A DNA stretch of 64,000 nucleotides. Origin: an uncultured Thiotrichales bacterium. GTDB taxonomy: Bacteria > Pseudomonadota > Gammaproteobacteria > CAIRSR01. Of the stretch, positions 46,724 through 49,695 are shown piece by piece. The DNA lies in contig CAIRSR010000175.1 of assembly GCA_903881315.1 (NCBI GenBank), forward strand, positions 1 to 64,000. The letters run 5' to 3'. Position 1 is the stretch's first letter. Each line of letters begins with the position of its first letter. The notes beneath the pieces are model-generated. The model searched no databases, was not told where the DNA came from, and saw only the letters and a program-made list of their open reading frames with translations. A program made the translations under genes and the position numbers.

Positions 46724-47212
46724 TCACTTGCCGCTTACAGGAGCCGCCGCACCACCTGCATCCGCAGTACCACCAGCCCACCAATACGCGGCTGTGGCAC
46801 CGGCTACGGCACCTACCCCAAGCACGAAGGTGTAAAACATATCCCGACGGGCGATAACATCGCGGGCATGGGTCGCCGGAGCGATCATCTCACCCAACAC
46901 GGCACCGGCGGCGCGGGCACCAAGGATCTCAGGGGAATAGACCACTGGTGCTGCTGTTGCAGCCGTGCCCCACCCAAACAACGATGCTGTCAACGTACCA
47001 CCGACCAGCAGATCGGCAACGATCACGCCACCTACCAGCCCGACCCCGGTGACCACCGTCCGCCACATGGAACCACTATCAGCAGAACCGGTAGCGGCAC
47101 TCGAAATAGCGGCGGCTGGTGCAGCAGCAGCGGGCGGAGCAGCAGCATTCCCGTCTGCACTGGCGATCAGCGGGAGCAACGACAGACACATTATTGCAAG
47201 CACTTTTTTCAT
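46724..47212 (-). CDS. Secreted or membrane Ala/Gly-rich protein beside the paired-Cys family
   Basis: 162 residues. A clear signal peptide (MKKVLAIMCLSLLPLIASA) is followed by an Ala/Pro-rich stretch, a Gly/Val/Ala-rich hydrophobic segment (about 50-85), a short charged helix ('HARDVIARRDMF') and a second hydrophobic segment (about 125-148). It lacks the two-cysteine pattern of the next four genes, and its only similarity to them is composition. Same strand and adjacent, so perhaps the same unit. I do not recognise it. Confidence 0.6.
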   Translation of the reverse strand: MKKVLAIMCLSLLPLIASADGNAAAPPAAAAPAAAISSAATGSADSGSMWRTVVTGVGLVGGVIVADLLVGGTLTASLFGWGTAATAAPVVYSPEILGARAAGAVLGEMIAPATHARDVIARRDMFYTFVLGVGAVAGATAAYWWAGGTADAGGAAAPVSGK

Positions 47213-47281: not shown

Positions 47282-47650
47282 CTAATGATGCGAGAGAAGC
47301 CGACCCGCTTGGTCTTTAAACCACACCACCGTTGGCGCAAGGGTAGCACCAATGGAGCAACCCGCAGCGCCCAGCGCTCCCAAGAGGGAAATGGCGAGCA
47401 CCGTACTCCCCGATGGCACCAACAAACCACCACCCCACAACATGATCGCCTCGCTTGGGCCTAACGCATAGCCGACGGTAAACATCCCGCCACCACCCGC
47501 TAGACAACCAAAGCCTGCAACCTCACCGTCTGAGAGCGCTCCTGGTGCGCTACCCCCGCTATCATCCGCAAAGGCAACGCCCACCGCGAACCACCCACAC
47601 AGAATTACGACAGCTATCCGCCGGACTAATTCTCGAACTGACACGCGCAT
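47282..47650 (-). CDS. Paired-Cys secreted protein, copy A
   Basis: 122 residues. An N-terminal signal or anchor (about 10-28, 'IAVVILCGWFAVGVAFA') is followed by a short polar linker and one copy of the domain shared by four genes here. C49 and C98 are 49 residues apart. Relative to the first Cys, the domain has Pro at +16, Glu at +18, Met at +21, Gly at +25, Pro-Ser at +30/+31, the second Cys at +49, Gly at +52 and Pro at +57. The two segments between the motifs are hydrophobic and would form a membrane hairpin. Function unknown. Confidence 0.72.
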   Translation of the reverse strand: MRVSVRELVRRIAVVILCGWFAVGVAFADDSGGSAPGALSDGEVAGFGCLAGGGGMFTVGYALGPSEAIMLWGGGLLVPSGSTVLAISLLGALGAAGCSIGATLAPTVVWFKDQAGRLLSHH

Positions 47651-47662
47651 TTCCTCCGGGTC

Positions 47663-48562
47663 TTAAGGGGTATAGTAGGTCAGAGGGAGGAGCACGCTTT
47701 CTACGGAATCCTGTTGCCCGACCTGTAGCGACGATGTTGGCTCCGCCTGTGACTGCCTGACCTTTGCGCCAGACGCGCCCGCCTGTAATCCAGGAGCCGA
47801 TGATGATGGCCTGTTCCACCCTACCAGTGAGGCCAATTTCTGACCAATGGCGTTCGTGTCGAAATTCTGATAAAGCGCCACCAATGGCAATGCAGCGGCA
47901 GAGCCCATCGTACAACCGGCAGGAAGGATGGTTCCAATTACCCCCAGCATCAATATCGATGTCTTAGATGGCGCGGTAACACCTCCGGCTGCCAACATAA
48001 CCATCTCGGTAGGGGCTGCCGCTAGTGTGATGGCGCCAAGACCAAGAACGCCCAGCAAACACCCAGCTCCCTGCATTTCCCCTTCGTTCATTGGCACCAC
48101 TGCGGGAGGATCCTGTTTTACTGCCCGCTTATTTACCGAGGATAATGTCGGCGTAAGTTTAGCCTCTATTCCGTCCGCATTGTTCGCCGCCCATAGAACG
48201 GCTGGGGTTGCGGCTGCGCCCACGCCGCACGATCCCGCGCCTAAGATCCCCCCCAGGGCGAGGAAGAGCAATGACGACGAGGAGGGCACAATAACGGCAC
48301 CCGTTACGAGCATCATGATCTCGGTCGGGCCGAGAAGATAGGCTGCGCCCAGACTGCCTGAGCTAGCCACTAAACAACCCACCCCCTGTGCCGCGTTATC
48401 TGGCATAGGGGTAAAAATGGAAGATCCTTGGGCAGCGTCATTACTATCTGCTGGCGCGGTGTCCGCTGATACGACACCCGCAGCGAATAACGTGAGTGCC
48501 GCGACTAACCTGATCCCCTTCACGAGACGGATTGGCACGAGTAATCTCTCCAGAATCAACAT
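47663..48562 (-). CDS. Paired-Cys secreted protein, copies B1 and B2 (tandem)
   Basis: 299 residues holding two copies of the domain. B1 has C62 and C111, B2 has C167 and C216; both spacings are 49. The fixed Pro/Glu/Met/Gly/Pro-Ser positions of the family are kept in both. A linker of about 45 residues joins them, and a Ser/Gln-rich tail of about 60 residues follows. An N-terminal hydrophobic segment (about 18-33) ends in 'SADTA', which looks like a signal peptidase site. An internal duplication or a fusion of two adjacent genes. It begins upstream of copy A by 12 bases. Confidence 0.7.
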   Translation of the reverse strand: MLILERLLVPIRLVKGIRLVAALTLFAAGVVSADTAPADSNDAAQGSSIFTPMPDNAAQGVGCLVASSGSLGAAYLLGPTEIMMLVTGAVIVPSSSSLLFLALGGILGAGSCGVGAAATPAVLWAANNADGIEAKLTPTLSSVNKRAVKQDPPAVVPMNEGEMQGAGCLLGVLGLGAITLAAAPTEMVMLAAGGVTAPSKTSILMLGVIGTILPAGCTMGSAAALPLVALYQNFDTNAIGQKLASLVGWNRPSSSAPGLQAGASGAKVRQSQAEPTSSLQVGQQDSVESVLLPLTYYTP

Positions 48563-48607
48563 TCGACTCAGACAATGTTACGAAATGGAATGTCTTGCCC
48601 ACAAAAC

Positions 48608-49015
48608 CTAATTGGGCGACTTCACCGCAGCCGCAGGAGCTGCTTGCTCCCCCCACAGCCCATTAAAGATTGTTCCGACCTGCTCGGATAGCCACAACGC
48701 AAAAGGTGTTGCCGCAATACCAAAGCTGCATGTGGCGGTGAGAACGGTAGCCACCAAGCCAACCATCAAAGGCCCCGTTGCAGAAGGAACCAAGGTTCCG
48801 CCTGCCGCAACCATAACCAGCTCATTAGGGCCAGCGATAAGTGCGGCACCCAAGACCCCGCCGGTCGCAGCCAAACAACCAATCCCCGCCTTTGTGGCGT
48901 CAGATAACCCACCCCCCCCACCGGAGGCATCGTCATCGGCACACGCCAACGACGAGAAACTAACCAGCGCACCAATCAGTAAGGCAAATACAGCACGAAA
49001 TAATAAATCTTTCAT
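48608..49015 (-). CDS. Paired-Cys secreted protein, copy C
   Basis: 135 residues from the ATG at 49015; the open frame reaches 49306 but only the shorter form begins with a signal peptide (MKDLLFRAVFALLIGALVSF, then SSLACADDD). C47 and C96 are 49 apart, with the same Pro, Glu, Met, Gly and Pro-Ser spacing as copies A, B and D. A Gly-rich linker precedes the domain and an Ala/Pro tail follows. An additional Cys in the signal region ('LAC') might be a lipoprotein site or merely part of the cleaved peptide. Confidence 0.7.
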   Translation of the reverse strand: MKDLLFRAVFALLIGALVSFSSLACADDDASGGGGGLSDATKAGIGCLAATGGVLGAALIAGPNELVMVAAGGTLVPSATGPLMVGLVATVLTATCSFGIAATPFALWLSEQVGTIFNGLWGEQAAPAAAVKSPN

Positions 49016-49089
49016 CTTGGTATCCCGTGACAATCCACACGAGGTTATACAAAAACAGGATAATCCCGAATCACCAACCACAAACGTGG

Positions 49090-49497
49090 TCAACTGGTGC
49101 CGACAATATGACGATACAACCAAGAAAACGCCGGTTGCGCCACCGCACCAATCGTGCAACCTGCCGCAGCGATGGTTCCAAACAGGCCTAAAAATAGAAC
49201 TGACGAATTGGAGGGCACAACCATCCCCCCGACTATCAACATAATCACCTCGGACGGGCCAGCCGCATACGCTGCCGCCATCCCGGTCGTTGCACCACCT
49301 ACACAATAAGCAGAGGTTACCTCCCCATCACTCATAGGCCGAATGTTGGAGAACATCCCCGCGAAGCCAGAGGCGGATGCTTGATCACCCCCCTCTCTCT
49401 GTGAAGGGTCTGCTGCCACCGCATAACCCGACCCAATAGTCAATAGGAGGGCGAGTACTGGCAGCAATCGCCTGCTTAGAAAATAAAACTGGGGCAT
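49090..49497 (-). CDS. Paired-Cys secreted protein, copy D
   Basis: 135 residues from the ATG at 49497, where a signal peptide begins (MPQFYFLSRRLLPVLALLLT); a longer frame to 49557 is open. C65 and C114 are 49 apart, and all the fixed residues of the family are present. 'MSDGEVTSAYCVGG' before the first Cys parallels 'LSDGEVAGFGCLAG' of copy A and 'MNEGEMQGAGCLLG' of copy B2. The first gene of the cluster on the minus strand, so a promoter is expected just above 49500. Confidence 0.72.
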   Translation of the reverse strand: MPQFYFLSRRLLPVLALLLTIGSGYAVAADPSQREGGDQASASGFAGMFSNIRPMSDGEVTSAYCVGGATTGMAAAYAAGPSEVIMLIVGGMVVPSNSSVLFLGLFGTIAAAGCTIGAVAQPAFSWLYRHIVGTS

Positions 49498-49695
49498 GGT
49501 AAGTTTTCTCAGGACTGTTACTTTGGGGTGTATTCTACCCATTACGACACGCGCCAATAATATACAGTAAGCGTTCTCATTTGAAAATAATCTTTAGTAA
49601 AAAAAATCAAGATTCTCTTATGAGATTGCGGGCGGCGTAGGTCTTCCTGTCGAAGCCCGATAAATCTAAACCTGCTCAGCGGGCGGCTGTCAATC

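Follow-up and report, generated by a model that had tools for sequence, protein, structure and literature searches.

The window analysed in this work is a stretch of 64,000 nucleotides from an uncultured Thiotrichales bacterium, and its minus strand holds four adjacent genes for exported proteins that share a two-cysteine domain of about 79 residues. Gene D (49090..49497) and gene C (48608..49015), both of 135 amino acids, each consist of a signal sequence and one such domain (at about 49105-49341 and 48677-48910, respectively). Gene B (47663..48562, 299 amino acids) carries a signal sequence or anchor followed by two domains, B1 (about 48179-48412) and B2 (about 47861-48094), and gene A (47282..47650, 122 amino acids) has a signal sequence and a single domain (about 47309-47539). 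The five copies in four adjacent genes reported by the initial annotation are confirmed where it had placed them, but the unit reaches past the interval it considered (47282-49497), to a gene E (46724..47212, minus strand, 162 amino acids) whose exported, Gly/Ala-rich product belongs to a different family from A-D. Since the gaps within D-C-B-A-E are only 13 to 75 bases long, the five genes are probably one transcription unit. A weak sigma-70-like promoter match lies upstream of D (49557..49587, minus strand, 9 of 12 positions), which is not evidence on its own, as the region has four such sites against 2.0 expected. The domain duplication is old, as no long DNA repeats were found between the copies.

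In the window, the two cysteines are 49 residues apart in all five copies, without gaps, just as the initial annotation claimed. The further motif it described (P+16, E+18, M+21, G+25, P-S at +30/31 and G+52, relative to the first cysteine) is invariant in these five copies but not family-wide: over 30 sequences from both the Gamma- and the Alphaproteobacteria, only the two cysteines, E+18 and G+25 never change. M+21 is replaced by leucine in one D copy, P+16 by alanine in alphaproteobacterial C and P-S by V-S in alphaproteobacterial B2, and the cysteine spacing is 50 in alphaproteobacterial C, as opposed to 49 elsewhere. Judged from these sequences, the family is wider than the motif first used to define it. 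The family profile matches each window copy at about 1e-28 to 1e-35, values that are partly self-matches, the copies themselves being among the rows of the profile. Between the window and its congener G001, dN/dS is 0.09-0.15 for all five genes, which marks D, C, B, A and E as constrained protein genes and shows that the frames are real.

Each protein opens with a signal sequence of the Sec type whose last residues read AxA, as judged from the sequence, in agreement with the signal peptide or anchor first proposed for all the genes. Beyond it, A-E are rich in glycine, alanine and hydrophobic residues and have few acidic ones, and no Ca2+-binding motif was recognisable in them. AlphaFold predicted the full-length D protein poorly (pLDDT 66) and the isolated domain with moderate confidence (pLDDT 76, pTM 0.56). 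The domain model has one helix at residues 5-27, a connecting segment with a short helix at 28-46, and a second long helix at 47-78, i.e., a predicted antiparallel two-helix hairpin. In the model, the first helix continues for 14 residues beyond Cys13, and Cys62 lies 15 residues into the second, so that the two would lie level with each other in the hairpin and could form an intramolecular disulfide after export. The invariant glutamate and glycine, together with the near-invariant proline and P-S pair, all fall in the 19-residue connecting segment. The disulfide-closed membrane hairpin suggested by the initial annotation is consistent with this single-copy model.

The description of the family as unrecognised also stands. 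Neither A, B, C, D and E nor their relatives had a significant match in Pfam and NCBIfam (at the curated cut-offs) or PHROGs (at a significant E-value), the best weak match of D in these libraries being to oleosin (Pfam PF01277), under the cut-off at E = 0.14. A sequence-profile search against PDB chains found no match (best E = 0.7), and Foldseek, run with the moderate-confidence models, found none in one search and nothing better than E = 1.8 in another.

Within the window's own family, D-C-B-A-E is present in four of the four genomes (G000-G003, of which G000, the window genome, is of the same genus as KR_bin-0880, G001), where it is flanked by a PMT_2-family gene and yicC wherever the contig permits reading. 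A profile search found the block in none of 365 further gammaproteobacteria. A contig scan returned four loci, i.e., those of KR_bin-0880 (Thiotrichales; locus L025, on the same contig as G001), VK3_bin-0780 (Rhodospirillales; G369, locus L026), B12_bin-0097 and D14_bin-1024 (both Acetobacteraceae); it depends on exact short motifs and did not pick up G802 and G803, which is why the lack of further loci in it counts for little. The alphaproteobacterial loci keep the same order, D-C-B-A with two domains in B. Among 385 alphaproteobacteria only G369 has the block and three others have single distant relatives, among 82 Azospirillaceae it occurs in G369, G802 and G803, with all others except G804 having none or single distant copies, and among 300 Acetobacteraceae only B12_bin-0097 and D14_bin-1024 carry it. 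The Azospirillaceae genome G804 has a fragment, D, where a contig of 3.5 kb breaks off. Ordered D-C-B-A is thus found in G000-G003, G369, the Acetobacteraceae MAGs G370 and G371, G802 and G803, and is absent from about 1,100 other genomes screened (gamma- and alphaproteobacteria, Azospirillaceae and Acetobacteraceae), all of these being samples that include incomplete MAGs. The array-bearing Azospirillaceae form a small-genome group, and their large-genome relatives have single distant relatives of the domain. As to the co-occurrence with particular lineages that the initial annotation suggested checking, the block is limited, among the genomes screened, to the window family, the small-genome Azospirillaceae and two Acetobacteraceae. 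A search for gammaproteobacterial photosynthetic reaction centres, comparing three M chains with PDB chains, gave no clear Chromatiaceae, and its other matches were not resolved.

A secreted toxin or bacteriocin set, one of the roles first considered, would be small, exported, glycine-rich, hydrophobic and disulfide-capable, and encoded in tandem, all of which applies here. It is nevertheless very improbable, given the low dN/dS and the copy number and order fixed across two classes; besides, no immunity, export or variable partner gene adjoins the block in the loci read, and no relative of the array was found in viral contigs, plasmids or phages.

In a tree of 51 domains from both classes, positions A, B1, B2 and C each form one clade spanning the two (supports 97/96, 98/100, 99/94 and 93/93), whilst the position of D is not resolved. 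Since these clades span the classes, the five-domain arrangement predates whichever event, split or transfer, separated the lineages, and, as this holds for four of the five domain positions, the block was inherited or moved as a unit. At A, B1 and B2 the sequences from Acetobacteraceae group with that of G369, apart from those of G802 and G803, even though the latter two share G369's family; this grouping points to horizontal transfer of the block. The tree of E does not contradict such transfer, nor does it resolve the point.

The E protein has two hydrophobic stretches and a conserved segment, ARAAGAVLGExIxxATxARDxxARxD. Its gene adjoins A in the gammaproteobacterial and Acetobacteraceae carriers, following it on the opposite strand in the two Acetobacteraceae. 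Within the Azospirillaceae it is confined to the array-bearing clade: G369 and G801-G804 have it, a single weak match comes from G809, and G801 has E while the D-C-B-A block is absent. In G369, G804, G803 and G801, E is part of a row of three tandem E-like exported genes (L156 2330-4090, L157, L158 and L159) that lies upstream of a gene for a dnaB-like replicative helicase; two of the three are short relatives, and the product of the middle gene ends in PWWRFW. In G802 and G803, an MBOAT-type O-acyltransferase-like gene and, after it, a likely partner gene, both named by eye from the sequence, adjoin A (L106 3580-6114, L107 4000-6511).

More distant paralogues were also seen. A sixth, F, is encoded on contig C31 of the window genome (L169 3422-3910, minus strand, 162 amino acids), and its C-terminal segment, LFGKIVDxIPxEPL, recurs in single genes of G369 (L168), G801 (L170), G802 (L166) and G803 (L167), making F a second exported protein common to gamma- and alphaproteobacterial carriers; its contexts have no conserved neighbour. 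Two adjacent distant paralogues lie on G801:C269 (L170 3093-4188), one of them with the pattern ACVLGGLAGTG...GP.E, which also occurs in G802, G803 and G804 and points to an expansion of the superfamily in this group of Azospirillaceae. A separate branch of single-copy relatives with the pattern GC.(2)G..GT...........NxxAGG.V.PANP is found in G645 (L112), G722 (L113) and G787 (L111), alphaproteobacteria that have no block.

The initial annotation suggested checking for co-occurrence with dsr genes, and dsrA does stand beside the locus in the window genome. It is present in G000-G003, G370 and G371, but absent, with at most weak partial matches, from G369 and G801-G806, so that four array-bearing genomes (G369, G802, G803 and the fragment in G804) are without it and a link to dsr sulfur oxidation is not supported. 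Magnetochrome (PF18509), the one domain used as a magnetosome check in these incomplete MAGs, is present in G000-G003, G369 and G804 and absent from G370, G371, G802 and G803. Carriers of the block thus include genomes with both markers, with either one alone and with neither, so that neither explains it, each being missing from four carriers. Of 304 alphaproteobacteria taken as a control, G369 was alone in scoring above the magnetochrome cut-off, which leaves no block-free magnetotactic genome for comparison. The dsrA genes of the Acetobacteraceae MAGs (G370:C297, G371:C132) are 71% identical to that of the window gammaproteobacterium, which suggests that a sulfur trait, too, is shared by these carriers and the window lineage or has been transferred.

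These data bear on two readings of the array as part of an inclusion. The proteins could coat sulfur globules whilst being unrelated in sequence to SgpA-D: dsrA stands beside the locus in the window genome and has a 71% identical counterpart in the Acetobacteraceae carriers, Sgp proteins are likewise exported and extremely hydrophobic (PMC10386293), and globules occur in some of the magnetotactic bacteria of these lineages (PMC11773610). This is unlikely, however, given the carriers without dsrA, the inability of the alphaproteobacterial carbonate formers discussed below to oxidise reduced sulfur compounds (PMC11773610), and the restriction of the block to one family among 369 gammaproteobacterial genomes, where most dsr-bearing ones would be expected to have it. 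Slightly less likely still is a set of magnetosome-associated membrane proteins, a role that the six magnetochrome-bearing carriers would favour and that the four others do not; in the window genome, moreover, the magnetochrome genes are on contigs C4, C90 and C112, away from the block on C175.

A third kind of inclusion fits the distribution better. Some magnetotactic bacteria form intracellular amorphous CaCO3 (iACC), and among them morphotype 3, of the gammaproteobacterial order CAIRSR01, groups with KR-bin-0880, whilst morphotypes 1, 2 and 5, of the Azospirillaceae, group with VK3_bin-780 (PMC11773610). In both classes the inclusions are bounded by a lipid bilayer (PMC11773610). The cyanobacterial gene ccyA was searched for and is absent from the genomes of iACC magnetotactic bacteria and of Achromatium, no molecular determinant of iACC is known in Pseudomonadota, and for that reason a single origin followed by horizontal transfer and several separate origins are both still under discussion there (PMC11773610); a second paper proposes only cation transporters (PMC12710302). 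In Achromatium, the CaCO3 bodies sit in periplasmic pockets (PMC6995342), where exported, oxidised proteins would meet the mineral. One array carrier per class, KR_bin-0880 and VK3_bin-0780, falls within a clade holding observed iACC formers, which makes the block a candidate iACC gene set.

We therefore propose, with a probability of roughly 40% and on the correlation given by the clade membership of the carriers, that D-C-B-A-E encodes exported hairpin proteins that line or coat the membrane of the iACC compartment. As exported structural proteins, they would insert as hairpins from the periplasmic face into an extracytoplasmic membrane, or pack on it, and several diverged paralogues together would make up the lining or scaffold of a lipid-bounded amorphous CaCO3 compartment, in the way that Sgp proteins surround sulfur globules, with E as an accessory lining protein. 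The block would have moved between lineages by horizontal transfer. That it is a transferred module building the iACC compartment in Pseudomonadota, so that alpha- and gammaproteobacterial iACC shares transferred parts instead of having evolved independently, is a conjecture we hold marginally less probable than the lining role itself. Among the functions offered by the initial annotation, an envelope structure or the surface of a storage inclusion comes closest to the evidence, with calcium carbonate in place of sulfur.

Several observations speak against the carbonate reading. The evidence is correlation only, carbonate having never been seen in the array-bearing MAGs themselves, and iACC formation is not known from either of the Acetobacteraceae carriers. 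Large-genome Azospirillaceae and some Acetobacteraceae, from which no calcification is known, also have single distant relatives, and the superfamily as such is therefore not iACC-specific. The scarcity of acidic residues, the lack of a Ca2+-binding motif, the moderate confidence of the AlphaFold models and the E gene of G801 without the block count on the same side. The shared factor could also be habitat, since all carriers of known source come from oxygen-stratified freshwater; the named ones are all MAGs from stratified freshwater lakes or ponds (PMC11773610). Hence a rather doubtful, if serious, alternative is that these are envelope or channel proteins of a general kind, serving life where oxic and anoxic water meet in stratified lakes, with no tie to a mineral. 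The single-copy relatives in other Azospirillaceae and Acetobacteraceae imply that the fold is of some use outside the iACC clades, and the invariant proline, glutamate and glycine, in a segment predicted to be re-entrant, would be in keeping with a pore. On the other hand, hundreds of other genomes from these families and classes, taken without regard to habitat, do without the block, and five diverged paralogues kept together resemble a scaffold more than one channel.

A transferred, lineage-restricted block in both classes provides a named gene set for testing single versus repeated origin of iACC, and it marks the Acetobacteraceae MAGs B12_bin-0097 and D14_bin-1024 as possible non-magnetotactic carbonate formers. 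Even without the carbonate link, a conserved five-domain system of exported hairpins with no known relative is a new structural family.

Among known systems, the Mam/Mms proteins likewise belong to the membrane of a bacterial compartment that holds a mineral, a few being glycine-rich, and six of the ten carriers have magnetochrome; the array, however, matches no described family and four carriers are without magnetochrome genes. Oleosins share with it a hydrophobic hairpin, a proline in the turn and the coating of an inclusion, but the match of D to them is not significant, and they are eukaryotic lipid-droplet proteins with neither signal peptide nor paired cysteines. Calcyanin has a glycine-zipper architecture. 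Encoded by ccyA in iACC cyanobacteria, it is likewise lineage-restricted, glycine-rich and tied to intracellular amorphous CaCO3 (PMC11773610); the array encodes exported hairpins with cysteines instead, and the cyanobacterial inclusions have no lipid bilayer. The array also differs from SgpA/B/C/D of Allochromatium vinosum, in its two-cysteine hairpin, its occurrence without dsrA and its lack of a family-library match, so that the likeness is one of role: small, exported, extremely hydrophobic paralogues that envelop an extracytoplasmic inclusion (PMC10386293).
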